Shown here: piece by piece, positions 11,900 through 51,249 of the stretch
Layout of the letters: the number at the start of each line of letters is the position of its first letter
Position numbering within the stretch: the first letter of the stretch is position 1
Virus record (IMG/VR): IMGVR_UViG_3300031231_000003
Coordinates: 60,422-124,421 of that record
Reading direction: 5' to 3' (one strand)
Origin: a virus
DNA: 64,000 nucleotides
Made by a program: the position numbers and the translations under genes
The notes under the pieces: generated by a model
What the model was told of the DNA's origin: nothing
Databases searched by the model: none
What the model saw: the letters and a program-made list of their open reading frames with translations, nothing else

Positions 11900-12385
11900 A
11901 TGAAACTTACTTGGATTGATTCGAAATTGCTGGGATTCTTTACAAAAGAAAAACTTGCACTACGAAACAATACAATGGATTCGTTAAACGAAGAAATCAA
12001 GGAACTCTGGAAATACGAACTCCTTGATGGAAAACCATACTTGAATAATTCACGTACAAGATGCAAGAATACGTTTGAAGATTTTCAATATGATTGTCTT
12101 AATACCGTTGATAACCGGTCAAAGTCAATATATGAAGAATATCGTTCATATGGTTGCGGTTCATTTACTTCGGTGATTATGTTGTATTGGAATATTTGGG
12201 AACATTCAAGTGATATCAACGCGGGAGAACTTTTAAAGAAGTATTGGGGTCGCTCATTGTTGTATTGGATCGAATATGGGATAAAGAAAATCGCAATATG
12301 GATTTGGTCGCATCGTAATGAACCATTCATTCTAATGATTTTAGGTGCGTTTTTAACAGCTTACGCTTTAACGATCATTAAATGA
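11900..12385 (+). CDS. Small membrane-anchored protein, unknown
   Basis: 161 residues. Mostly charged and aromatic (many Tyr/Trp), with one hydrophobic C-terminal segment (FILMILGAFLTAYALTII) that would be a tail anchor. Three cysteines lie in the middle. No family recognised. Its stop overlaps the next ATG (ATGA), coupling it to a PGD-motif gene. Confidence 0.5.
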   Translation: MKLTWIDSKLLGFFTKEKLALRNNTMDSLNEEIKELWKYELLDGKPYLNNSRTRCKNTFEDFQYDCLNTVDNRSKSIYEEYRSYGCGSFTSVIMLYWNIWEHSSDINAGELLKKYWGRSLLYWIEYGIKKIAIWIWSHRNEPFILMILGAFLTAYALTIIK

Positions 12386-12636
12386 AACCAAAACTCACCT
12401 CAGAACTTCTCCCCGGTGATCTGTTATGTCCCCGCGGCCTGAACGATTTCAATGACTATGGTATCGTCATTGGCGTCGCAGAATCATTCACGAATTTTGC
12501 TGCGTATGGTTCCGGTCCGCTCATCGTTAATGCCATGTACCTCACGATCACATACGTTAATTCACGAACGTCACAGGTAAAGAAGTACGTCTCGTTGAAA
12601 ACGACGATGCATCAGGTTGTGTCATTCCAGCCATGA
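12382..12636 (+). CDS. Small PGD-motif protein (copy 3)
   Basis: 84 residues. The N-terminus SELLPGDLLCPRG is an excellent match to the family motif. It is followed by GIVIGVAES, LTITYVNS and KKYVSL, the short strand pattern seen in the other copies. It starts in an ATGA overlap with the membrane protein upstream. Function unknown. Confidence 0.7.
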   Translation: MKPKLTSELLPGDLLCPRGLNDFNDYGIVIGVAESFTNFAAYGSGPLIVNAMYLTITYVNSRTSQVKKYVSLKTTMHQVVSFQP

Positions 12637-13455: not shown

Positions 13456-13680
13456 ATGTCCCGAAGCGTCAAGATGAAAGATCTTCGGCCAGGCATTGAT
13501 GTTTTGACATGGTCGTATCAAAGCACCGGTCTTGTGATTGGAAACATTCGTACCGTTCCAACGACACAAAGAAAGCTTCCGCAAAGGAAGGTAATTTACT
13601 TGGATTTGAACGGAATTCACGAATTCAGCGGGCAAGACGATTATACCGTCTCTGTGAATGATGATGATAATGAAACTTGA
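13456..13680 (+). CDS. Small PGD-motif protein (copy 4, PGI variant)
   Basis: 74 residues from ATG 13456; MKMKD later in the N-terminus could also start it. It has KMKDLRPGIDVLTW, where Asp of the motif is shifted by one residue, then GLVIGNIRTV and KVIYLDLNGI strands. It is followed by, and overlaps, a longer relative that carries the same LRPGIDVL string, so the two are likely tandem duplicates. Confidence 0.6.
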   Translation: MSRSVKMKDLRPGIDVLTWSYQSTGLVIGNIRTVPTTQRKLPQRKVIYLDLNGIHEFSGQDDYTVSVNDDDNET

Positions 13681-14302: not shown

Positions 14303-14473
14303 ATGGCAATTCATACGACCATCCGGTACGAGTACGTGAACGATAAACACACCCCTCTCGATGTTCCTCGGCAGGTCACGACCTACGAAGGTCGGGTATT
14401 GAAGGTCTTCAACGAGCAGTTTCGGGCGATGTCGGACATCTACACGATGGCGAAGAACGTGAAGGCAGTATGA
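14303..14473 (+). CDS. Small conserved-looking hypothetical protein
   Basis: 56 residues from ATG 14303 with an AAGGA ribosome site. Begins AIHTTIRYEYVND and ends in a helix (FRAMSDIYTMAKNVKAV). Its stop overlaps the following ATG (ATGA), so it is coupled to a PGD-motif gene. Confidence 0.5.
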   Translation: MAIHTTIRYEYVNDKHTPLDVPRQVTTYEGRVLKVFNEQFRAMSDIYTMAKNVKAV

Positions 14474-14724
14474 AGTACTCTGAATTGCTCCCTGGCGACG
14501 TCATCTTTTATCCGGGTTGGAAGGAAAGGTTCAACGTGACATCCTCACAGATCGGTCATGATGTGATTCTTTCGGTTTGTTTGGGGAAGAATTTCGAGAT
14601 CAAAATCTACGTAATGTACACGAACCCGCAGAAACAATCTTCCGTCAAAAAGTGGTTCACTAGATCTGACGAGATCATCGAAAGCGACCGCACAGTGCAC
14701 AGAAAAGGTGTACTGATCCACTGA
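14470..14724 (+). CDS. Small PGD-motif protein (copy 6)
   Basis: 84 residues in an ATGA overlap with the gene before. N-terminus KYSELLPGDVIFYPGW fits the family exactly; strands DVILSVCLG and IKIYVMYTN follow. The C-terminus is basic. Function unknown. Confidence 0.7.
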   Translation: MKYSELLPGDVIFYPGWKERFNVTSSQIGHDVILSVCLGKNFEIKIYVMYTNPQKQSSVKKWFTRSDEIIESDRTVHRKGVLIH

Positions 14725-17660: not shown

Positions 17661-17921
17661 ATGAAACTGTGTGACGTTCGACCGGGAGATTACTTGAAAT
17701 GGACGAACGGCCTGTGCTTTTGCATCTCTGTCATTCGTAACGACAAGTACGACCGTAGGAATTCGAGAAGAGAACCGACATGGACGCTCAATTTCGTTTT
17801 CAACGATTTTCCCGGAAAGATGCGATTTTCGGCAATCACCAACGCAACGAGCGAGGTCATGAATGCTAGCAGGGATAATACCCAGAGGTTGAATTCACCG
17901 TTCGACGACGGCTCGAGATGA
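17661..17921 (+). CDS. Small PGD-motif protein (copy 7)
   Basis: 86 residues. N-terminus KLCDVRPGDYLKWTNG, then CFCISVIRNDK and WTLNFVFND. The C-terminus is disordered-looking. Its last codons form the left arm of a perfect 15-bp inverted repeat (17911-17977). Confidence 0.65.
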   Translation: MKLCDVRPGDYLKWTNGLCFCISVIRNDKYDRRNSRREPTWTLNFVFNDFPGKMRFSAITNATSEVMNASRDNTQRLNSPFDDGSR

Positions 17922-30855: not shown

Positions 30856-31503
30856 ATGCTCAGATTTGCGACGATTGCGGACGTTCACATCCGCTCGTTA
30901 ACACGTCATGATGAGATTCGAGAAGTGTTCAACGCTTTCGTTAAAGACGTGAAGGAACACAACATCGATCACATTTTCATTGGTGGCGACATCGGTCACA
31001 GTAAAACAGCACAATTTTCGGCTGAGTACGTTGATCTCATGGTTGAGCTGATCAACTTGCTTGGCGATACCGCACCGACCCACATGATCTTGGGAAATCA
31101 CGACCTGAACGAGAGAAACAAGATCAGACAGGATGTGATCACACCCGTTTTAAACGCGGTCAAGCACCCAAACGTGCATCTTTACAAGACTAGCGGTGTT
31201 TACAGTATCGCAGAAGGTTGCAATTTGTGCGTCTTTAGCATCTTTGACGAGGAGAATTGGAAAAATGTGGAACCCGTAGAAGGTGACATCAACATCGCTT
31301 GTTATCACGGGGGCGTTTCGGGAGCAAGGACTGAAACTGATTGGGAACTCACGGGAGGTCTGGAATTAGATCATTTTGCTGAATATGATGCAACTTTCCT
31401 CGGTGACATCCACAAATTTCAATGGCTGGATCATCGTGATTTTGAAATTGAAATTGACGAGGATGAGTTAAAAGATTATCCCGGAGCAATTGTGCTTCCA
31501 TGA
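30856..31503 (+). CDS. gp47/Mre11-like nuclease, N-terminal half (split gene)
   Basis: 215 residues. All calcineurin-type phosphoesterase motifs are present: IADVHIRS (D9, H11), FIGGDIGHSK (D45), LGNHDLNE (N81, H82), ACYHGGVSG (H151) and LGDIHKFQW (D184, H186). The protein stops soon after (DYPGAIVLP), where relatives of about 340 residues continue into the capping domain. That missing part is found at the start of the gene at 31711. A PGD-motif gene starts in an ATGA overlap with this stop. The codons for Tyr-Pro-Gly at 31477 are repeated exactly at 31756. Confidence 0.85.
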   Translation: MLRFATIADVHIRSLTRHDEIREVFNAFVKDVKEHNIDHIFIGGDIGHSKTAQFSAEYVDLMVELINLLGDTAPTHMILGNHDLNERNKIRQDVITPVLNAVKHPNVHLYKTSGVYSIAEGCNLCVFSIFDEENWKNVEPVEGDINIACYHGGVSGARTETDWELTGGLELDHFAEYDATFLGDIHKFQWLDHRDFEIEIDEDELKDYPGAIVLP

Positions 31504-31764
31504 AATTTAGTGATCTCAGACCGGGAGATATGTACATCACGTCTGGTTCTACCGTTTATCCTCAGCATGAATCAGCAACCGTTGTAGCCGTAACTGAGAA
31601 TCATATAACGTGGTTGATTACGGAAAATAGATTGACAAAGATCTATCGTTTTAAGAATTTCAATGATCAACCTTTCGATGAAAAGGGAATCACTTGGTTG
31701 AGGGTGAAAAATGTCTAAGAAGATTCGAATTCGTATAAACCGACCGGCGATAGGGTATCCCGGA
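31477..31764. repeat. 9-bp direct repeats flanking the gp47 insertion
   Basis: TATCCCGGA occurs at 31477-31485 (codons Tyr208-Pro-Gly of the gp47 N-half) and at 31756-31764 (codons Tyr16-Pro-Gly of the downstream gp47C-gp46 ORF). The offset is 279 bases, a multiple of three. Removing one repeat and the intervening segment would join the two ORFs in frame. The segment contains the PGD-motif gene. Confidence 0.8.
31500..31718 (+). CDS. Small PGD-motif protein inside the split gp47 (copy 10)
   Basis: 72 residues. N-terminus MKFSDLRPGDMYITSGS is one of the best matches to the family motif. Strands ATVVAVTENHITWLITE and KIYRFKNF follow. It starts in an ATGA overlap with the gp47 N-half and ends 8 bases inside the next ORF. 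It occupies most of the segment between the 9-bp direct repeats, so it appears to be the cargo of the insertion that broke gp47. Confidence 0.75.
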   Translation: MKFSDLRPGDMYITSGSTVYPQHESATVVAVTENHITWLITENRLTKIYRFKNFNDQPFDEKGITWLRVKNV

Positions 31765-34284
31765 TCGATGCTTCAAAATACCTACTCAGAAGATCTGAAG
31801 CATTTTTGGCTGAAATGGGAGTTCAAATCGAGCAACGACTTCACAGTCGTTCCTGTTGAACTTCCGAATCCAAAGCCATTTTTGACAATCGATTGGAACG
31901 GTTCCGTCAATAAAACGGTCGACCAGTTGAAGAACTTCAAGGCTGGTTCAAGGGTTCGTATCAAGTCTGATGCAAAGATCCCACTTAAGTACTCAACGAA
32001 GCTCGTTTCAACGATCAAGAACGAGATGGGAGCATCGGAGGTCATCTTCAAGGAAGAACAGGCAACCGACATCTCTCGAATCAACATGGGTTCCGTTCAG
32101 TTGCTTCGTACGGATCTGAGGAATTCGGACGTATTGTTTCAGCTTTTAAAGGAACATTACAAGTCATCCGAAATGCATGAGGATGAATGGGTGAAGATCT
32201 ACGATCTTCTTCGTAAGTACGTCTCGATTCTCACGAGCGAGGATGTGATGAGGAACGTCAAATGGTCATTGAGAAGACTTCGCTTCAACAACATGTATTC
32301 CTATGGCGAAGATAACACGATCAATTTCGATGCATTGTCGGGCCTCGTAGGTATATTCGGGCCAAACAGAAGCGGCAAGTCTTCAATTCTCGGAACCCTA
32401 ATGTACGGGTTGTTCAATGCGACCGATAGAGGTCCAATCAAGAACATGTTGCTGTGCAACACTCGTAAGCAATCATGCTCATCAAAGATCGTGATCAAGC
32501 TCGGGGGTCGTGATTACCTCGTTGAGCGTTCAACGAACAAGAAGTCGAACAAGCAGGGTGACATCTCCGCCGCGACGAACCTCAGGATTTGGGAACTCAT
32601 CGATGGAAAACCTGTTGAAAGCACGGGGGAGCAACGTTCAGACACCGAGAAAACGCTGAGAAAGCTCATCGGAACGTCGGATGATTTTCATTTGATGTCG
32701 ATATCGACGCAGCGAGATGATAATTCAATCCTCGAACACGGGTCCACGAAAAGACGACAGATCATTTCAAGGTTCCTTGACATTGACGTCCTCCAGCAGA
32801 TCCATGAACTTGCACGTGATGATGTTCGTGAACAAAAAGGTCTCATCAAGAACCTGAACGAGGATTTGAATGAATCAATAAACGATAGACGTAACGTGTC
32901 ATCCAATCTCGATCAACAGATTGAACTCAACGTTTCTAATCTCGAAAGTTCACGTGAAAGGTTGTTCGATCTAAAGACTCAGCTCGCAGCTTTCAAGGGA
33001 TTCAAGCATGTTTCGATCGAGGAGCTCGAATCACACCGTGAATCGATCGACGAGTTGAACGGAAAATTATCGAAGGTTGTTTCAAGCATTGAAAAAGCGG
33101 GAAGGGACTTACAAGAAACGGATGAAAAAATAGAACGTGTTTCGACGGTTCTTCAGGATTACGATCTTGTGACGATGAAGCAACAGCTCGATTCATTCAA
33201 GAAGCTGCGTTCAAGCGTCAATTCGATGCTTCAAGCGTACACGAACGAGAACAACTCGTTCGAACGTAGCAAGAAGACGATCAAGATCCTGCAAGACGTT
33301 CCTTGTGGCGATTCGTTTCCAACGTGTAAGTTCATCAAGGATGCTCATGACCTGAAACCAACGCTGGACGATCAACGTGATCGAGTAAATTCTTTGAAAC
33401 GATCGTACGATGAAGCGAATCAATCGCTCGGCGGTATCGATGAAAAAAAGATGGTCGACAACGTTTCGAAGGTTGAATCGTTGAAGGAAAAACTGGGACA
33501 ATTGAAGTTGAACAAGGCTCAGCTCGAAACCCAATTGACAAGGCTCAATCACAACAGGAACGAGATTCAGCGAACTTTGGACGTTGCGATCAATGAATTC
33601 GAGGATCTCGAATCAAGGACCGACAAAAAGAAGAACGATGAACTGACCTCACTTAAATCATTGATCTTTTCTGCCGAAGCCGGAATATCCGTCTTGGAAA
33701 AAGCGAATATCTCTTTGGCAACACAAAAAGGTAAGATTGAATCCGAGATCGAACGTTTGTTGAAGGATCAAAAGAGACGAATCGATATCCTTCAAAGGAT
33801 GAAGTACCACGAGGTGATCGAATCCAGCTTTTCAAAGAATGGAATTCAGGATGCGATCCTCTCATCAATGCTTCCTGCGATCAATGAAGAGGTTGCAAAG
33901 ATCCTCAATGGAATCGTGAACTTCACCGTTGAGCTCGAGAAGCTACCGAATGATGATCAAATCGACATCTACATAAACTATGGTGATGGTGACAAGAGGG
34001 TTCTCGAACTCGGAAGCGGCATGGAAAAGTTCATCAGTTCAATCGTTCTACGAGTTGCATTGAACAACATCTCCACCTTACCGAAGAGCGATGTGTTCTT
34101 CATCGACGAAGGATTCGGGTCGTTGGATGCGAGCAGCGTGGAGGAGTGTTCAACATTGCTTCAATCTCTGAAGAAGTACTTCAAGACGATCATTGTCATC
34201 ACACACGTTGACGTGATGAAGGACATCGTCGATTCCACGATTGAGATCACACGAAACGGAAAGGACTCACATGTCTCGTGTTGA
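31711..34284 (+). CDS. gp47 C-terminal domain fused to gp46/Rad50-SbcC ATPase
   Basis: 857 residues. Residues 1-190 are not gp46 but the capping part of gp47: RPAIGYPGSMLQNTYSEDL, HFWLKWEF, GSRVRIKSDAKIPL, GASEVIFKEE. From about 192 (VKWSLRRLRFNNMYSYGED) it is the SMC-like ATPase: Walker A FGPNRSGKSS (about 217-225), long coiled coils with a Cys pair in PCGDSFPTCKF (C532, C539) as the zinc-hook position, the ABC signature region LELGSGMEKF, and Walker B VFFIDEGFGSLD (D799, E800). With the N-half of gp47 it should form the recombination nuclease that processes DNA ends. Confidence 0.88.
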   Translation: MSKKIRIRINRPAIGYPGSMLQNTYSEDLKHFWLKWEFKSSNDFTVVPVELPNPKPFLTIDWNGSVNKTVDQLKNFKAGSRVRIKSDAKIPLKYSTKLVSTIKNEMGASEVIFKEEQATDISRINMGSVQLLRTDLRNSDVLFQLLKEHYKSSEMHEDEWVKIYDLLRKYVSILTSEDVMRNVKWSLRRLRFNNMYSYGEDNTINFDALSGLVGIFGPNRSGKSSILGTLMYGLFNATDRGPIKNMLLCNTRKQSCSSKIVIKLGGRDYLVERSTNKKSNKQGDISAATNLRIWELIDGKPVESTGEQRSDTEKTLRKLIGTSDDFHLMSISTQRDDNSILEHGSTKRRQIISRFLDIDVLQQIHELARDDVREQKGLIKNLNEDLNESINDRRNVSSNLDQQIELNVSNLESSRERLFDLKTQLAAFKGFKHVSIEELESHRESIDELNGKLSKVVSSIEKAGRDLQETDEKIERVSTVLQDYDLVTMKQQLDSFKKLRSSVNSMLQAYTNENNSFERSKKTIKILQDVPCGDSFPTCKFIKDAHDLKPTLDDQRDRVNSLKRSYDEANQSLGGIDEKKMVDNVSKVESLKEKLGQLKLNKAQLETQLTRLNHNRNEIQRTLDVAINEFEDLESRTDKKKNDELTSLKSLIFSAEAGISVLEKANISLATQKGKIESEIERLLKDQKRRIDILQRMKYHEVIESSFSKNGIQDAILSSMLPAINEEVAKILNGIVNFTVELEKLPNDDQIDIYINYGDGDKRVLELGSGMEKFISSIVLRVALNNISTLPKSDVFFIDEGFGSLDASSVEECSTLLQSLKKYFKTIIVITHVDVMKDIVDSTIEITRNGKDSHVSC

Positions 34285-34577: not shown

Positions 34578-35162
34578 ATGCGTAATTACGATTGGTTCAA
34601 AAAAACTTACGATTATATCGTTTACGATGTTCGAAATAACTTGCTGATTGCGGATTTCGAAGTTCATCATATTTTGCCGCGCTCTTTGGGTGGTTTGGAT
34701 TCTCTCGAAAACAGAGTTAGATTAACGTATCGTCAACATTTCATTTGTCATTGGTTACTTTGGAAAATGTCGACCGGGAAAGATCGTGAAAAGATGGCAC
34801 TTGCGTTCAAGTTCATGAAAGAAGGCCAACAAGGAAAATTTGTTGTATTGAATTCAATAACGTTCGCCAGAGTGAAGAAGGAAGCTTCACTTTTTCAGAG
34901 CAATCGACAAATTGGGATTAAAAAGCCGTATTTGAATGGAAATCAATTCGCAAGACACAAGCATACTCCCGAACAAAATTTGAGAAAAAGTAAACGTCAA
35001 ATTGGTGGTAAAAGAAAACCCGAAACGATTGAGAGGATGAAAATTGCACAAAGTAAATCCGAAACTAAAAATCAAATTAGAGAACAATTGAAACGATATT
35101 GGGCAAAATGGCGCGTAGATAACAATCGTAAACCTCGTATCGGTGATGAAAAATATTTATGA
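34578..35162 (+). CDS. HNH homing endonuclease
   Basis: 194 residues, intact. FEVHHILPRSLGGLDSLENR, VRLTYRQHFICHWLLWKM form the HNH core; GIKKPYLNGNQFARHKHTPE and GGKRKPETIERMKIAQ are NUMOD3-like. It ends RYWAKWRVDNNRKPRIGDEK YL, a C-terminus also found as a remnant at 63.7 kb. It is inserted between the zinc-ribbon gene and head genes and overlaps neither. Composition is more Asn/Lys-rich than the neighbours. Confidence 0.8.
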   Translation: MRNYDWFKKTYDYIVYDVRNNLLIADFEVHHILPRSLGGLDSLENRVRLTYRQHFICHWLLWKMSTGKDREKMALAFKFMKEGQQGKFVVLNSITFARVKKEASLFQSNRQIGIKKPYLNGNQFARHKHTPEQNLRKSKRQIGGKRKPETIERMKIAQSKSETKNQIREQLKRYWAKWRVDNNRKPRIGDEKYL

Positions 35163-39554: not shown

Positions 39555-42500
39555 ATGGCAAACAAGCAATTAAAAGGATCAGAATCGCCCGAGAAGTTCT
39601 TTAAAAGAATGACTCGTATCTTCAAGAGCGGCGTTCAGGTCAAGCGAAAGATTCGTGCTCAAGATACCGCCGTCGTCGTTGCCGATAAGACGAAATCGTC
39701 TGGAACGTTGCTGTTTCAGAAGTCGTTCTCTCCAACGTACGCTTCAATCACGAGCAATGCTTACAACATCGCTGAGCGTCAAGTTCGTTACCAGGATTTT
39801 CAGCAGATGGAACAGACTGCTGAGATCGCTGCTGCCTTGGATCTATGGGCGGATGAATCTTCAAGTCCTGATGAACACGGGCGAGCTTTGCACATCTTTT
39901 CTGACAACGAGAAGATCAAGCAGGTTCTTGATGACCTGTTCTACAATCGATTGAACATCGAATTCAACCTTAGAAGTTGGGTTCGATCATGTTGCAAGTT
40001 CGGTGACTTTTTTCTATTGAATGACGTGCATCCTACTGAGGGTGTCGTTCATGCGTACCCAATTCCAGTCAATGAGATCGAACGCGAGGAAGGGTACGAC
40101 CGCGATGATCCAATGGCGGTTCGCTTTCGCTGGGTCTCGCTTGGTAATAGGATCCTACAGAACTGGGAAGTATCTCATTTCAGGTTGCTAGGAAATGATT
40201 CGTTCCTGCCATATGGTTGCTCGGTCATTGAAGCAGCAAGACGTGTGTGGCGTCAATTGATCCTCATTGAGGATGCGATGCTTGTCTACCGTGTCACAAG
40301 GGCACCCGAACGTCGAGTGTTCTACATCGATGTCGGTAACCTCCCAGCGAACGACATTCCTGCGTACGTTGAAGCTCAAAAGCAAGCGCTTCGAATGAAT
40401 CAGGTGCTTGATTCACAGACGAGCCGGGTTGATCTTCGTTATAATCCACTTCCAGTACATAAGGATACACCAATTCCATTACTTGATGGAACGACGTTGA
40501 CGATTGAGAATCTTTCGAACAAAATGAAGGAGAATTCCAATTGGACACCTTGGGTTTACTCGATACAAGACAAGTCGCTTCGTATTGTTCCAGGTAAGGT
40601 CACCTGGTGCGATAGGAATTACGTTGCGAAGAAGCTGGTGAAGGTTTGGCTTGACAACGATTCGTACGTTCTCACCGCTCCAGAACACCCATTTGTGCTG
40701 AGGGATGGATCAAGCAAGAGAGCTGATGAGTTGGTGGTGGGTCAGGCTTTGATGCCATTTTACAGGGAACTAAGTGTTTTTAAGGAAAAAGTTGATGGTA
40801 CAGATGATTTAGACGGATATGAAAAAATTTATGATCCAAAAACTCAAAGATTCGTTTATACACACCGTCGTGTTGCTGAAATTTTATCTCAACCAATAAC
40901 CTTACCCGAAGGAAATAATAATTGGGTAACTCATCATGTTGATTTTAACAGGTTAAATAACGATCCTTCGAATTTATTGAGAATGGGAAATGTAGATCAC
41001 TGGTATTTACATGCGTCTGAAATTACACGATACAATAAATCTGATCTTAAGAAAGAACGAACATCAAAGAACAACATTGAACGAAATTCAGTTGGTGCCA
41101 TGTCTTGGTACAACGGTTCGGATCTTCACAAGTCTCATAATGAGAATCGTAAGATCGGTCAATTGAAAGATTGGGGAGATCAAGAAAAGAAAACTCAACG
41201 AAAGTTGAACATGCAATGGAAAATTCCGAACGAGATGATCGAGAAGATCAGTGATCTCATTCGAAAGGATCCAAAAATTTCTCGGGTTAAAATTCACGAA
41301 GAGATCAAGAATGATCAAGAATTGATGAACGCATTGATGTCGATTCAAACGCCTGCAAGAGATGTTTCAAAGTTCAGTTATCAAGGCTGGATGTGCGAAT
41401 TTCAACGAAGAGGTCAAGGTAATGGATTTACTCAAATTCGTGAAGCTGTGTTGAATTACAAGAATCACAAGGTTTCTAAGATTGAATTCTTGGACGTTGA
41501 CGGCGAAGACGTCTATTGCATGACCGTTGTTGGTTCCGCCGGTGAAGACGATAGACACAATTTTATGGTCCTCGGGTTGAATGAGGATGGATCTCAATCA
41601 GATTCTGGTGTTTCATTATGGAACAGTGTAGACGAAGATTATTTCATTCCTATTCGTGGAAGCGACACAGGTACCAAGATCGACACACTCGCTGCGGGGC
41701 AGAATACAGGAACCGTTGAAGACGTTGCTTACATTCAAAAGAAACTGTTCGCAGCCCTCAAGATTCCAAAGGCTTACCTTGGTTACGAAGAAGGTCTGAG
41801 TTCTAAGAGCACGTTGGCACAGATGGACATTCGATTCTCTCGTTCAGTCTCCGTAATTCAACGCACATTCATTGCGGAACTGAATAAACTCGCAATCATT
41901 CACTTGTTCACGCTCGGATTTCAGAACGAGGATCTTGCTAACTTCACGTTGCACTTGTCTAATCCGTCAACCGTCGCGGAGCAACAAAAGCTCGAACTTT
42001 GGCGGACCAGATTCGAAATTGGGGGTTCGTTACCCGAAGGTATGGGAACGAAGCAATTCGTTTACAAGACAATCTGGGGTCTCAATGACGATGAGATCGA
42101 CCAGATCAACAACGACCGTGTCAAGGAAACCCTTGTGGATGCCACAATCGCTGCGATGGCAGAAGGTGGAGAAGCTTCCGGCCCCGGAGGCGGTGGAGGT
42201 GGTGGCGGGGGAGCACCTGCAGGTGGAGGATTCGATCTTGATGCCGGTGGCGAGGATGAGGACATCTTTAGCGATGACGATGCAGGTGGAAGCGCGGATG
42301 ATTCTGGTGGTGAGGATGAGATCCCTGACGAGGAGAACGCAGGTCCCGAACCTCTCGAGGATGAGGATCCCGATTTGGAATTATTGACATCGAGCGATGA
42401 TCAGGATGATCCCGAGACGTTCAAGATTCCTTCAATGAGGGATTCACCCGTGAAGGTTGCAAAGCAACTGCAGAAATCGCTTTACAACAGATCACGTCAT

Positions 42501-42854
42501 CGTACACATGGTCCATCAAAGACTCACATGCCCGACTTTCTAGGCATGGTGAACAACAAACGTCGCGAAGATACAATGAACGACCCGTACGATACGAATG
42601 CAATGAAGGCACTTATCACGAATCCGTTCGGTGAATCAATTCGCAGGCCAAATGCGATATTGACGAATGATATCATGAGTGCGTTGAACAACATGAAACG
42701 TGAACACGATTCCGATCGTGTCGCAAAAGGTGGTACGTTGTTGTTGAATGAAGGTGATGAAGGTGTCGAAATTGAACTTGACGACTCGACGTCTGATGAC
42801 GATGAACTATCGTTGCAAGAACAAGTATTCCATAATGAAAGAGAAGAAGAATAA
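39555..42854 (+). CDS. Portal protein, gp20-like, with intein-like insert
   Basis: 1099 residues. The N-terminal extein (1-299) has the gp20-type pattern (AEIAAALDLWADESSSPDE, HFRLLGND, ERRVFYIDVGNLPA). A Hint/HNH insert occupies about 300-690. The portal then resumes with SVDEDYFIPIRGSDTGTKID, DVAYIQKKLFAALKIPKAYL and FIAELNKLAIIHLF. The C-terminus is Gly-rich and acidic (around 870-950), typical of this portal group. Without the insert it is about 708 residues. It forms the dodecameric DNA gate on which terminase docks. If the insert does not splice out, the portal would be non-functional, so splicing or an intact second gene is expected. Confidence 0.9.
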   Translation: MANKQLKGSESPEKFFKRMTRIFKSGVQVKRKIRAQDTAVVVADKTKSSGTLLFQKSFSPTYASITSNAYNIAERQVRYQDFQQMEQTAEIAAALDLWADESSSPDEHGRALHIFSDNEKIKQVLDDLFYNRLNIEFNLRSWVRSCCKFGDFFLLNDVHPTEGVVHAYPIPVNEIEREEGYDRDDPMAVRFRWVSLGNRILQNWEVSHFRLLGNDSFLPYGCSVIEAARRVWRQLILIEDAMLVYRVTRAPERRVFYIDVGNLPANDIPAYVEAQKQALRMNQVLDSQTSRVDLRYNPLPVHKDTPIPLLDGTTLTIENLSNKMKENSNWTPWVYSIQDKSLRIVPGKVTWCDRNYVAKKLVKVWLDNDSYVLTAPEHPFVLRDGSSKRADELVVGQALMPFYRELSVFKEKVDGTDDLDGYEKIYDPKTQRFVYTHRRVAEILSQPITLPEGNNNWVTHHVDFNRLNNDPSNLLRMGNVDHWYLHASEITRYNKSDLKKERTSKNNIERNSVGAMSWYNGSDLHKSHNENRKIGQLKDWGDQEKKTQRKLNMQWKIPNEMIEKISDLIRKDPKISRVKIHEEIKNDQELMNALMSIQTPARDVSKFSYQGWMCEFQRRGQGNGFTQIREAVLNYKNHKVSKIEFLDVDGEDVYCMTVVGSAGEDDRHNFMVLGLNEDGSQSDSGVSLWNSVDEDYFIPIRGSDTGTKIDTLAAGQNTGTVEDVAYIQKKLFAALKIPKAYLGYEEGLSSKSTLAQMDIRFSRSVSVIQRTFIAELNKLAIIHLFTLGFQNEDLANFTLHLSNPSTVAEQQKLELWRTRFEIGGSLPEGMGTKQFVYKTIWGLNDDEIDQINNDRVKETLVDATIAAMAEGGEASGPGGGGGGGGGAPAGGGFDLDAGGEDEDIFSDDDAGGSADDSGGEDEIPDEENAGPEPLEDEDPDLELLTSSDDQDDPETFKIPSMRDSPVKVAKQLQKSLYNRSRHRTHGPSKTHMPDFLGMVNNKRREDTMNDPYDTNAMKALITNPFGESIRRPNAILTNDIMSALNNMKREHDSDRVAKGGTLLLNEGDEGVEIELDDSTSDDDELSLQEQVFHNEREEE
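40452..41624 (+). mobile_element. Intein-like Hint domain with HNH endonuclease in portal
   Basis: About residues 300-690 of the portal ORF. The start region VHKDTPIPLLDGTTLTIENL is a block-A pattern but without Cys/Ser at position 1. Block B reads YVLTAPEHPFVLRDG (T and H in place). The middle holds an HNH-like segment (NNWVTHHVDFNRLNNDPSNL, then LRMGNVDHWYLHA). Block F reads DVYCMTVVGSAGEDDRHNFM with Cys where class 1 inteins have Asp. The end is GVSLWN followed by Ser, so Asn-Ser at the junction but Trp instead of the penultimate His. The boundaries are inferred from the restored portal sequence. Confidence 0.7.
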
Positions 42855-46242: not shown

Positions 46243-46473
46243 CTATTTCTTTTGACGTATCACGAACGTTGCCCCGTCAATTTTATCCCGTTCGTTGTAG
46301 CAAATTTTTCTCGTACAGGTGGGATGGTTGTTCATGAAGTTGATGTGAAGATCGTAACCAGTACCGAGCTTACCGGTTGCATTCGTAATTACGACACTTA
46401 AAACCAACGATTGGTTACCGTGAACGACCCTTGAGACTAGCAAATCTCCGGGATAAAGGTGTGAATAAAGCAT
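46243..46473 (-). CDS. Small PGD-motif protein (copy 11)
   Basis: 76 residues from ATG 46473 (a TTG lies two codons upstream). MLYSHLYPGDLLVSRVVHG fits the motif; SLVLSVVITNATG and YDLHINFMNN follow. It lies between the giant endonuclease and the proteasome-like gene. Confidence 0.7.
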   Translation of the reverse strand: MLYSHLYPGDLLVSRVVHGNQSLVLSVVITNATGKLGTGYDLHINFMNNHPTCTRKICYNERDKIDGATFVIRQKK

Positions 46474-46475
46474 TG

Positions 46476-48164
46476 TCAAATATAAGAAAAGAAAGAGTTT
46501 TCGTACCCGTTAATTCGTGTGAAACCATCTGCTGCGGCGAGCTCGTTCTCATTTAATCCAAGTTCTTTGTTGTTTTTGAACGTTTGACGGTCGTAACGTT
46601 TACACATATCTGTCCACCAGTAACGCATCACAGTTTGACGTTCGTATCTCCAACCTGATAATTTGTATCCCCTGCCATCACCGATCCGGTTATCGACGTA
46701 TGTTACCAATCCAGGTTTCATGGATGTTTTAGCGATTTTCAACGCTTCTTTTGTTAATTTACCCAACCAACCATGAACCTTGATGTTACATTTACATGCC
46801 GCTCTTGCGACCTCGAATCGGGATTCATTCGATCTTGATGCATTACGAGGTATTCTCAATGTCATGACGGCAATAAGTTCATCATTGAACTTCAATCCAA
46901 TACACTTTGATGATTGAACGTGTCCCTCTAGGTGGTTATTTACCAGGAATGATTTCGATTGTGCATTATCGATCTCAACAAGTTCGCATTTTCTTGCATG
47001 TATCGTTCTGTCAAACACATTCAATCGTTGTTTGATCATTGATTCAACTATTTTTCGTTTTTGTAACCATTCATCTTCAAATATCGAAAAGAGACGAATT
47101 CCAACTTGTTTAGCAAGCAACGACTTCTTAACGTGGTAACGAGGATCTTTCAGCACGGCGGTTGAATGCCAATAAAGTCCATTGTATTCAATACCAAATT
47201 TCATTGACGGAACGTAGATATCGACCTCTTGAGGGAACAAGATAGTTCTATCTCCGGATACAACATCACCCACGTTAAGCGATTTGACGAAATCAAGAAC
47301 TTCTAGTTGACCAATTGATCCTTTGGGATGACATGTATTACAAATCGGTCGTCCCCTGAATTGCATCAACGTTCTTTGTGCGGTGATACCGCAAGTCTTA
47401 CACTTGATATCAAGTTGATTGTACTTGTTTCGATATAAGTTCGGGTCGGTCAAAAGATCGAACTTTCCTTTTGAGCTGTCTTCGAACACATTGATCAATT
47501 GATCAGGCTTGAAACGTTTTGCGGACGAATTCATGTTTGTTTTGACTGTGTGAGATATGTTTCTACCCAACAAACGTACACTTTCATTCGTATCCTTTGT
47601 TTGCCCCTTGATCCAAGCAATTTTTTCACCCGAAGCGAACTTTCGTTTCTTTGTTTCTGATGATTTCTTCAAACTTTCATGAGTATCTTTCGTTTGACCT
47701 TTTTGCCAGTACTCATAAGTTCCCGCTTCGTGTCCAATTGTCAACGTTTTTCCAATACGTTCAGACATTTCTGCAACACGAATGTCAGTTTCTTTCGTCA
47801 AACCATCATTCCATACCTTGTATTTACCAGAACGATAACCATCAGTACGTTTTTGAGCGAATTCTGCTTGTCGATCCGGATCGTTGTAGATTGAATCAAT
47901 CACGGCGTTATGACCCCGGACGAATTTCACGGGATAACCAACCTTCCAACCGTACCATTTAACGGGCTCACTGCATTTTCCACATTTACAAACGGGGGTG
48001 ATTCCGCAGTGATAGATTTTGTCGAACAATGCTTGATGGTTGGTACAGGAATGTGTGGACGACAAATGCTCAAGAAATTTCTTCTCTTGAGCAAAGTCTT
48101 TATCACAGTTCGGACATGAAATTCGTTTGAATTTCTTTTTTTCAGGTATTACTTCCTCACTCAT
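46476..48164 (-). CDS. Giant homing endonuclease, Hef-like (paralog 1)
   Basis: 562 residues. N-terminal zinc module (CPNCDKDFAQEKKFLEH with a C2H2 look), CKCGKCSEPVKWYGW, then NUMOD-like Trp/Lys/Gly/Thr repeats (WNDGLTKETD, WQKGQTKDTH, WIKGQTKDTN). A second zinc ribbon (CKTCGI, CNTCHP) and the EDxHD-type nuclease (LEVLDFVKSL, EVDIYVPSMKFGIEYNGLYW) follow. The last 180 residues form an extra domain (FNDELIAVMTLRIPRNAS, TYVDNRIGDGRGYK) reminiscent of GNAT-type folds. It is a close paralog of the gene at 48.8 kb on the other side of the tail-tube gene. Confidence 0.82.
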   Translation of the reverse strand: MSEEVIPEKKKFKRISCPNCDKDFAQEKKFLEHLSSTHSCTNHQALFDKIYHCGITPVCKCGKCSEPVKWYGWKVGYPVKFVRGHNAVIDSIYNDPDRQAEFAQKRTDGYRSGKYKVWNDGLTKETDIRVAEMSERIGKTLTIGHEAGTYEYWQKGQTKDTHESLKKSSETKKRKFASGEKIAWIKGQTKDTNESVRLLGRNISHTVKTNMNSSAKRFKPDQLINVFEDSSKGKFDLLTDPNLYRNKYNQLDIKCKTCGITAQRTLMQFRGRPICNTCHPKGSIGQLEVLDFVKSLNVGDVVSGDRTILFPQEVDIYVPSMKFGIEYNGLYWHSTAVLKDPRYHVKKSLLAKQVGIRLFSIFEDEWLQKRKIVESMIKQRLNVFDRTIHARKCELVEIDNAQSKSFLVNNHLEGHVQSSKCIGLKFNDELIAVMTLRIPRNASRSNESRFEVARAACKCNIKVHGWLGKLTKEALKIAKTSMKPGLVTYVDNRIGDGRGYKLSGWRYERQTVMRYWWTDMCKRYDRQTFKNNKELGLNENELAAADGFTRINGYENSFFSYI

Positions 48165-48819: not shown

Positions 48820-50601
48820 ATGATCCAATTGAATGAAGTTACGTGGTCTCGAATTTGTCCAACTTGTGATCAACCAACAACACATAAAAATCGTGCAAAA
48901 TGTCTTTGTGCGGAAAAACTAAAAACGACATGTTCAAGTTGTTCTGCAAAGCAACGAGGAAAGAAAAGATCGGCACATGATTTATGTCCAATTTGTAAGA
49001 ACGAATTTAGAGTCCTTGATGTTCAAGAACACTCTGAACTACATTCAACGACGCCTCAATTACTTTGGTTGTTAAAACATTCATGTGAAATTCCTAAGTG
49101 TCGATGTGGTTGTGGTGAATCAACGAACTGGGCAAATTGGAAAAAAGGCTTCAGTGAATTCTTGAACGGTCATAACGGAAGTATTTACACGTCCTACGAC
49201 CTGCAAAAAGCTAAAGAAATTAGTGATAAAAGAAGATCAAAATTGATCGGGAAAGTTGGTTGGGCCAAGAACCAAACGATGGAAAATAACACAATAATTA
49301 AAAATCGTGCTCAAGCATCCGCAGCCGGAATACGCAAAACATTTGCTGAAGGTCGAATCGCCTGGTCAAAAGGATTGACGAAAGAAACCAATCCTGCCGT
49401 AGCCAGCATGGCTAAAAATTTAAAGGAGGGGTTCGCGAATGGAACGTACAAGCCGTGGGCAAAAGGATTGACGAAGGAAACAAATCCAACCCTTGCAACC
49501 ATGGCAATGAATGTTTCTTTTGCATTAAAACAAAAGGAATTGCATGAACGGCTAACAATCATTAAAAGATTGACTAAAAGCGAAATTTTAGATCGAATCA
49601 AAACCAACAGCAGCATCGAATTGCTTGATGATCTTTCACCGTATTTGTCGTTGACATCGACAAACATAAACGTTAAATGCAAACTTTGCAATGAAACGTT
49701 TAAATCATCAATCAATAATCTTGTAAGTGGAAACCGGTGTTACATTTGTTCTCCCGCTTGGATCTCATCTGGACAATCTGAAATCATCAATTTCGTCAAA
49801 AGTTTGAATTTTTCACCTCTGGTAAATGACAGATCAGCGATTAGTCCTCTTGAGCTTGACATATATGTACCAGAACGTCGATTCGCAATCGAATACAATG
49901 GCCTGTATTGGCATTCCGAGCTGAATAAAAGTGCAATTTACCATGACAACAAGACGAACAAATGCCTTACGAGTGATGTTCGTTTATTTCATGTTTTTCA
50001 AGATGAATGGGGAGAAAAATCAGACATCGTTAAAAGCATGATCAAGCATCGTTTGGGAATTTTTGATCGTGTAATTGGGGCTCGTAAATGCACGATACAT
50101 GTTTTAAACAACAGGCAACGAATAGAATTTTTTGAAAAAAATCACATTGATGATGATTCATCCGCAGGAATGTGTTTGGGTTTAATTCACAACGATGAAT
50201 TAGTGGCCGCATTATCATTACGAAAAGCGTTTCATAAAAAATACGAAGACGCTCTCGAGGTTGCTAGATTTTGCACTAAAACGTTCACAGCCGTGCCAGG
50301 TGCTTTGAGTCGTTTAACTTCACATGCTAAAATTTATGCAAGTTCGATGGGATACAAGCGATTGATCACTTACGTTGATTCAAGATTAGGAACCGGTGAA
50401 GCTTATAAAAAAGCTGGATTTTCCCTTGTGTCAAACACAAAACCTCGATTCTGGTGGACTGACATGAAGTACCGTTTCAATCGTTTCAAGTTCCGTGCCG
50501 ATCCAAAAAACAACATGACGGAGGCTCAGGTTGCTGGGGAAGCGGGTGTAGTGAAAATTTGGGGGTGCAAGAATTACGTGTTCGAGCTCATCATTGAATG
50601 A
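48820..50601 (+). CDS. Giant homing endonuclease, Hef-like (paralog 2)
   Basis: 593 residues, same architecture as the minus-strand gene at 46.5-48.2 kb: zinc modules (CPTCDQPTTHKNRAKC, CPICKNEFRVLD, CRCGCGESTNWANWKKG), NUMOD-like repeats (WSKGLTKETNPAVASM, WAKGLTKETNPTLATM), a second ribbon, nuclease (LELDIYVPERRFAIEYNGLY, then WHSE), and the C-terminal GNAT-like domain (HNDELVAALSLRK, TYVDSRLGTGEAYKKAGF). It diverges from the tail-tube gene across a 92-base gap. Confidence 0.82.
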   Translation: MIQLNEVTWSRICPTCDQPTTHKNRAKCLCAEKLKTTCSSCSAKQRGKKRSAHDLCPICKNEFRVLDVQEHSELHSTTPQLLWLLKHSCEIPKCRCGCGESTNWANWKKGFSEFLNGHNGSIYTSYDLQKAKEISDKRRSKLIGKVGWAKNQTMENNTIIKNRAQASAAGIRKTFAEGRIAWSKGLTKETNPAVASMAKNLKEGFANGTYKPWAKGLTKETNPTLATMAMNVSFALKQKELHERLTIIKRLTKSEILDRIKTNSSIELLDDLSPYLSLTSTNINVKCKLCNETFKSSINNLVSGNRCYICSPAWISSGQSEIINFVKSLNFSPLVNDRSAISPLELDIYVPERRFAIEYNGLYWHSELNKSAIYHDNKTNKCLTSDVRLFHVFQDEWGEKSDIVKSMIKHRLGIFDRVIGARKCTIHVLNNRQRIEFFEKNHIDDDSSAGMCLGLIHNDELVAALSLRKAFHKKYEDALEVARFCTKTFTAVPGALSRLTSHAKIYASSMGYKRLITYVDSRLGTGEAYKKAGFSLVSNTKPRFWWTDMKYRFNRFKFRADPKNNMTEAQVAGEAGVVKIWGCKNYVFELIIE

Positions 50602-50657: not shown

Positions 50658-50843
50658 ATGATGTTCAAAGATCTCCAGCCAGGAAATTTGTTGGTTTATG
50701 GCAATGTTCTACTTGTTCTTTCGATAGAATCTAAAAAGCACTCGTGTGGAATGACAATCTCGTACCTGGGAAACTATGGCGTGTTTCGTCAAGTGTACCA
50801 TCAAGAATCTTGCATAGATCAATCAATACGAGTCGTTAAATGA
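50658..50843 (+). CDS. Small PGD-motif protein (copy 13)
   Basis: 61 residues from ATG 50658 or 50661. MFKDLQPGNLLVYGNVLLVL has Asn in place of the motif Asp; GMTISYLGNYG follows. Coupled by an ATGA overlap to the next copy. Confidence 0.65.
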   Translation: MMFKDLQPGNLLVYGNVLLVLSIESKKHSCGMTISYLGNYGVFRQVYHQESCIDQSIRVVK

Positions 50844-51079
50844 CTTACGGTGAACTCGTTCCGGGTGACTTGCTCATCAATGACGCTCTTGGTACCATCA
50901 TCGTCATAGCAATTGATACCACAACCGTGTTGTTCGGGAACGATACTTCGGCACATATCAAACTATCGTTCCTTAGTACCTATAAGTCAATGTTCAACGT
51001 TCACATGCCATCGATGCAACATTGCACGAGCTTCGTTCGTTCAACAACTATACAACCCTCGTTGTCAAAAAAGAGGTAG
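50840..51079 (+). CDS. Small PGD-motif protein (copy 14)
   Basis: 79 residues. MTYGELVPGDLLINDALGTI is a clear match; IIVIAIDTTTVLFGND follows. The last 79 bases overlap the minus-strand copy 15 antisense. The region of overlap encodes a Ser/Thr/Gln-rich end that is probably non-essential in one of the two. Confidence 0.65.
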   Translation: MTYGELVPGDLLINDALGTIIVIAIDTTTVLFGNDTSAHIKLSFLSTYKSMFNVHMPSMQHCTSFVRSTTIQPSLSKKR

Positions 51080-51249
51080 TTTTTCAACGAACCGTCCACT
51101 GTTAAGACTGAAATGCTTCTATCGAACGCATTGCACCGCGTCTTTTGGTTTGCAATGACGAGACCTTGCATGTCACGAGCTGAGTGAATTAGAACGTCGC
51201 CTGGCTGAAGATCTTTGATCAATAACTGCAATCGTAGTACCTCGGCCAC
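51001..51249 (-). CDS. Small PGD-motif protein (copy 15, antisense overlap)
   Basis: 82 residues from GTG 51249; a TTG at 51222 would give LIKDLQPGDVLIHSARDM, aligned with the other copies, and may be the real start. GLVIANQKTR, SISVLTVDGSLKNYLFFD follow. The gene runs head-to-head with the kinase-like gene at 51275 and tail-to-tail with copy 14. Confidence 0.65.
   Translation of the reverse strand: MAEVLRLQLLIKDLQPGDVLIHSARDMQGLVIANQKTRCNAFDRSISVLTVDGSLKNYLFFDNEGCIVVERTKLVQCCIDGM

Follow-up and report, generated by a model that had tools for sequence, protein, structure and literature searches.

A gp47 gene split at a recurrent site, with a PGD-family gene in a gap that holds endonucleases in relatives

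T4-family phages carry genes split by endonucleases. The closest likeness to the gp47 locus described here is nrdA/mobE of Aeromonas phage Aeh1, where a free-standing homing endonuclease breaks an essential gene of phage DNA metabolism into two cistrons (PMC2988022). A related situation is found in gene 43 (DNA polymerase) of Aeromonas phages 25 and 44RR, where an endonuclease occupies one gap and another sequence the gap of the relative, and where the gene may have been split before the endonuclease arrived in it (PMC2988022). The T4 topoisomerase genes 39 and 60 represent a further endonuclease-associated split, at mobA, with the subunits made separately (PMC2988022). Viral Mre11/Rad50 fusion proteins are also known, and their nuclease-first arrangement is the kind expected of an unsplit gp47-gp46 ancestor (PMC3175470). 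We found no description of a split gp46 or gp47 in the literature searched. Naturally split inteins use acidic and basic segments to bring two polypeptides together. The pieces of Aeh1 nrdA reportedly reassemble through added domains from the mobile element, according to the title of Crona et al. 2011.

The window analysed here is a stretch of 64,000 nucleotides from a 124-kb IMG/VR virus record, in which gp47 is encoded in two parts (Table 1). A first-pass annotation of the letters alone had described an Mre11-like gp47 that ends after its phosphoesterase motifs, a missing capping domain that opens the next large ORF, and a PGD-motif gene between them, and all three observations hold. The N-half matches Pfam Metallophos (E 3e-10) and a PHROG SbcD-like family (E 3e-20) in profile searches, and all five phosphoesterase motifs are kept when the conserved motif residues are aligned. 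The third ORF opens with sequence that aligns to the capping/linker part of fused gp47-gp46 relatives, and this sequence is itself fused to gp46. PGD shares 4 nt with the gp47 stop at its start and 8 nt with the gp47C-gp46 start at its end, and these overlapping starts are probably translationally coupled. A GAGGG ahead of the gp46 start falls inside the PGD sequence and may serve as the gp46 ribosome-binding site. Assembly artefact as a source of the split is rejected because the same 5 kb recurs in two further IMG/VR contigs, at 100% and 99.98% identity.

Table 1. Positions of the parts of the split gp47 locus and of further PGD-family genes in the window
Feature	Position	Strand	Length	Basis or remark
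gp47 (Mre11/SbcD-like) N-half	30856..31503	+	215 aa	Complete phosphoesterase domain; Pfam and PHROG matches, motif alignment
Acidic C-terminal tail DFEIEIDEDELKDYPGAIVLP	31438..31500	+		Shared with split relatives, not with fused ones
First TATCCCGGA	31477..31485	+		YPG of conserved tail motif YPGA
PGD-family gene in junction	31500..31718	+	72 aa	Leave-one-out family E 2.7e-4
gp47 capping domain fused to gp46 (Rad50/SbcC-like)	31711..34284	+	857 aa	PHROG SbcC-like E 7e-54; alignment with fused relatives
Basic N-terminal head MSKKIRIRINRP of C-half	31711..31746	+		Proposed partner strand of acidic tail
Second TATCCCGGA	31756..31764	+		Native Mre11 YPGS strand
Further PGD-family genes	12382-12636, 13456-13680, 14470-14724, 17661-17921, 46243-46479(-), 50658-50843, 50840-51079, 51001-51249(-)

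Most of about 400 relatives from IMG/VR have one continuous gp47-gp46 gene, as the first-pass annotation had anticipated; the frame is uninterrupted in 345 of the 420 sequences examined, some of these records being duplicates of one contig. In the annotated phage that lies nearest, Microcystis phage Mel-JY01, gp47-gp46 is a single ORF of 1066 aa. Roughly two dozen relatives are split at exactly the window's point, and all splits fall directly after GDIHKxQ, recurring at one conserved site. The first-pass annotation had attributed the gp47 split to insertion of the PGD gene and had named relatives split without an insertion as the finding that would contradict it. At least 15 such relatives exist (L087-L090, L165, L168-L171, L174, L175/L176, L187, L193, L203 and L218), among them L087, at 56% identity the closest gp47 relative found, and the split therefore does not need the PGD gene. 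In L087-L090, which are 53-56% identical to the window in gp47N, a stop/start overlap of a few nucleotides lies at the same point. Many bare splits share with the window the codon at which the tail ends (YPGAIVLP-stop in the window, YPEAEVIG-stop in L088) and that at which the head starts (MSKKIRIRINRP in the window, MSKRIKIRVKRP in L088). A PGD gene at this site is absent from every relative found. On this sequence comparison the split most likely preceded the arrival of the PGD gene.

The gap of other relatives is occupied by endonucleases at various stages of decay. Those of L184 and L230 hold endonucleases of 289 and 300 aa that belong to PHROG homing/HNH endonuclease families and have weak Pfam matches (Vsr, DUF559 or PvuRts1I-like); in L002, the 484-kb phage LR756508, the occupant is a protein of 305 aa that has a TnsA-like endonuclease domain and also matches an HNH endonuclease family of PHROG. 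In L192 an endonuclease of the L230 type is reduced to its two ends, which make up a 44-aa ORF, and shorter endonuclease scraps are found in L214 and L190/L191. In four of these viruses (L184, L192, L214, L230) the head, M-G-K-(K)-I-K-I, and the 3' end of the endonuclease (...WEK(R)-stop) are the same DNA read in different frames. From sequence, homing endonuclease insertion looks like the origin of the splits across the wider virus group. The window's own gp47 gap contains neither an endonuclease gene nor a remnant of one. A 340-kb virus has an unrelated 104-aa ORF with no family match in the gap (L227:5681-5995); this ORF differs from PGD, and the junction has therefore taken in at least two unrelated genes. 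Two RNA hairpins are predicted in L230 in the interval from the gp47 stop to the start of the endonuclease (L230:2939-3000), the first formed by TTCAACAA...TTGTTGAA and the second enclosing the endonuclease start codon, with a folding energy of -22.6 kcal/mol for the folded stretch. They resemble the hairpin of Aeh1 mobE, which reportedly masks its ribosome-binding site (work cited in PMC2988022).

Trees of the gp46 part, from which tail and head were excluded, place split genes scattered among fused ones, with split and fused neighbours at L214/L212, L192 with L172/L173/L177, L230 with L236/L238, L193/L210, L028/L038 and L065/L045. A 33-row IQ-TREE analysis needs nine changes, eight of them forced by starred branches, and grouping all splits in one clade is rejected (AU p 2e-12). 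These phylogenies point to several independent splitting events at one conserved site; gain and loss of the split are not distinguishable from the trees alone. In L230, L192 and L214 the DNA of tail and head is 93-100% identical compared with 66-79% in the aligned gp47/gp46 flanks, and such near-identical cassette edges are what would be left by homing with co-conversion of the cassette. The window lies on a long branch beside the fused L239 and the rest, a placement without resolution in IQ-TREE, and we therefore infer its membership in the endonuclease history from its tail, its head and its codon-exact ends.

The sequences that border the break have a consistent character. All 24 split genes examined have a tail of net negative charge (mean -6.1) and a head of net positive charge (mean +4.9), values that are correlated by descent across the split genes. 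Such values are rare at ORF ends in general: of about 800 long ORFs at these loci, the C-terminal charge is -6 or lower in only 2.3% and the N-terminal charge +4 or higher in 5.5%. Fused relatives lack both the acidic tail and the basic head, with L022 as the sole continuous exception. The arrangement is the same in L002, L028 and L065/L342/L343 with different sequences. Laid antiparallel from the break, tail and head form alternating opposite-charge and hydrophobic pairs, as for DFEIEIDED of the window tail (RDFEIEIDEDELKDY) against NIRIRIKKS of its reversed head. The mean pairing score is 5.2 of 7 in the break-anchored register, which was chosen after inspection, against -3.9 to +3.0 in four others. 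In L022 the two strands are joined in frame within a continuous gp47-gp46 gene (L022:4335-7553), which is apparently a healed split. Its AlphaFold model (mean pLDDT 93.8) matches the fold of Thermotoga Mre11 (E 8e-12) and has predicted strands at residues 208-216 (SCEELVVNE) and 219-228 (LTTKKIKHIK) separated by a two-residue turn. Local pLDDT here is only about 70-80, the hairpin lies within one chain, and the predicted pairing of its strands is read from the tight turn rather than from the coordinates. The tail and head of split genes would pair between separate chains, and the oppositely charged strands probably clip the gp47 halves back together.

The gene now at the junction belongs to a family of its own. 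In leave-one-out profiles the gene at 31500 is the best non-training ORF among 693, and most other PGD members are also recovered; a dispersed PGD family therefore exists in this virus. At least eight additional members lie on both strands of the window, which contains nine of the ten PGD hits of the 124-kb record, the family being nearly absent from the record's other half. Against 16 other virus records the profile gave two weak matches, both in one record, and a direct scan for PGD relatives found only the same virus. Support for mobility of PGD genes, as suggested, is weak: members of the family are scattered, yet the other copies are only 18-26% identical to that at 31500 and for this reason no recent transposition is visible. 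The AlphaFold model of the 31500 protein has four predicted strands (mean pLDDT 63), and no PDB structure matched below E 0.7 and no Pfam or PHROG family convincingly.

Free-standing endonucleases also occur elsewhere in the window. An HNH homing endonuclease gene lies one gene downstream of gp46 (34578-35162, PHROG E 2e-30), and two large divergent homing endonuclease genes (46476-48164(-) and 48820-50601, PHROG E 7e-65 and 1e-76) lie on either side of a small tail-tube-like ORF region, and each has a PGD gene as a neighbour. The idea that PGD genes are endonuclease hitchhikers was dropped, the three that adjoin endonuclease genes in the window being not clearly above a rough expectation. A 1099-aa portal-like ORF (39555-42854) has a segment, at about residues 305-690, that reads like a candidate intein (HKDTPIPLLDGTTLTIENL ... 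HNFMVLGLNEDGSQSDSGVSLWNS).

Our results favour a history, which we consider likely, where an endonuclease cassette split gp47, adaptor strands rejoin the halves and a PGD gene later took the gap. The ancestor would have been a continuous gp47-gp46 (Mre11-Rad50) fusion, into which a homing endonuclease gene inserted some ten codons past the GDIH active-site motif to yield two cistrons. The cassette would carry, or create at its edges, an acidic β-strand that closes the N-half and a basic β-strand that opens the C-half; antiparallel pairing of the two would hold the halves together as a working nuclease, and the split enzyme presumably does work. The window's own ancestor would likewise have carried the endonuclease, which was then lost from this lineage while the adaptor strands stayed. 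A small PGD-family gene would subsequently have been placed exactly at the stop/start junction, with overlapping starts kept on both sides.

Another proposal is that a PGD element split gp47 directly, by insertion with a 9-bp target-site duplication. As the first-pass annotation observed, TATCCCGGA encodes Tyr-Pro-Gly in frame in both ORFs and its copies, 279 bp apart, flank a segment of that length; ORFs 1 and 3 share a frame and deletion of 279 bp leaves one open frame. This arithmetic, the existence of fused relatives and the lack of PGD at the site in all relatives found speak for such an insertion. However, short direct repeats within coding sequence can mimic target-site duplications: the window has 374 pairs of identical 9-mers spaced 9-300 bp, and under its codon usage two YPG tripeptides are encoded by identical codons in about 5% of cases. 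Repeats left by a transposon-like event would abut the insert and be present as one copy at the empty site, whereas these are separated from the inserted segment by 15 nt on its upstream side and 45 nt on its downstream side and fall within conserved protein, and bare-split relatives retain both YPG motifs. Comparison with relatives places the boundaries instead at the overlapping stop/start codons, the segment extra to them being approximately 31500-31710. The residues just before the second repeat (KKIRIRINRPAIG), which had already been suspected of being native, and those around the first (ELKDYPGAIVLP, then stop) are matched in bare-split relatives; the L088 counterparts are ELSNYPEAEVIG (then stop) and MSKRIKIRVKRPWVAYPGS. 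Both YPG sites are thus native, each conserved in relatives for separate reasons, so the repeat is rejected as a target-site duplication and is weak evidence for insertion. Given also that the window's tail and head match the scars of the bare splits, direct splitting by PGD is highly improbable.

It is very unlikely that the PGD protein serves as a functional third piece, either bridging the two gp47 parts or becoming joined to them through frameshifting. The overlap of start and stop codons on both sides would suit such a role, but bare-split viruses manage without PGD, the gene lies in another frame such that two shifts would be needed, and its family has copies at many other places. An intron or intein is also rejected: no Rfam match beyond chance was found for an intron or other RNA element at the site, and the insert, an independent ORF in a different frame, has a start and a stop of its own and gives no intein-like Pfam match. 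Alternatively, a long acidic/basic hairpin may be native to ancestral gp47, with the endonuclease entering its turn and the short-loop fused relatives having lost it. L022, continuous and with the whole hairpin, is what this would predict. Yet L022 is alone among the 345 continuous records in having a loop of more than 20 residues, the distance from GDIHKxQ to the YPGS strand being 8-20 residues in all others, and the hairpin is absent from L017, which is 82% identical to it. The near-identity of tail and head DNA among cassettes further argues that both travel with the endonuclease, and a native hairpin appears unlikely. Returning to the endonuclease history, a broader proposal, which we rate at slightly below even, is that gp47-invading endonucleases carry a portable two-part zipper. 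Each insertion would deliver a matched acidic and basic β-strand that rejoins the broken protein, allowing the parasite to spread at low cost; the zipper would outlive the endonuclease and the gap would be open to colonization by small unrelated genes, PGD among them.

The relatives provide a natural series of an intact gene, a gene with an endonuclease, with a decaying endonuclease, a bare split, a re-occupied split and an apparently healed one. The series bears on the ways in which an important repair enzyme is broken up by mobile endonucleases and its pieces might keep their function; adaptor strands would be a simple way of assembling a split protein, one that is testable and occurs repeatedly. 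The gp47 case is a known kind of split gene, but the enzyme and the endonuclease family are different and its stages form a fuller series. Compared with Aeh1 nrdA/mobE, the target is Mre11-Rad50, there are many independent splits, decay stages and both bare and re-occupied splits, and the adaptor is a predicted charge-complementary strand pair. In contrast to gene 43 of phages 25 and 44RR, the window's gap is occupied by a PGD-family gene, and bare splits occur commonly. Paired acidic/basic adaptor strands are not described for T4 genes 39/60 in the review of these systems (PMC2988022), nor is splitting or endonuclease insertion reported with the viral Mre11/Rad50 fusions (PMC3175470). Unlike naturally split inteins, the gp47 halves have no splicing domain and would remain two chains.
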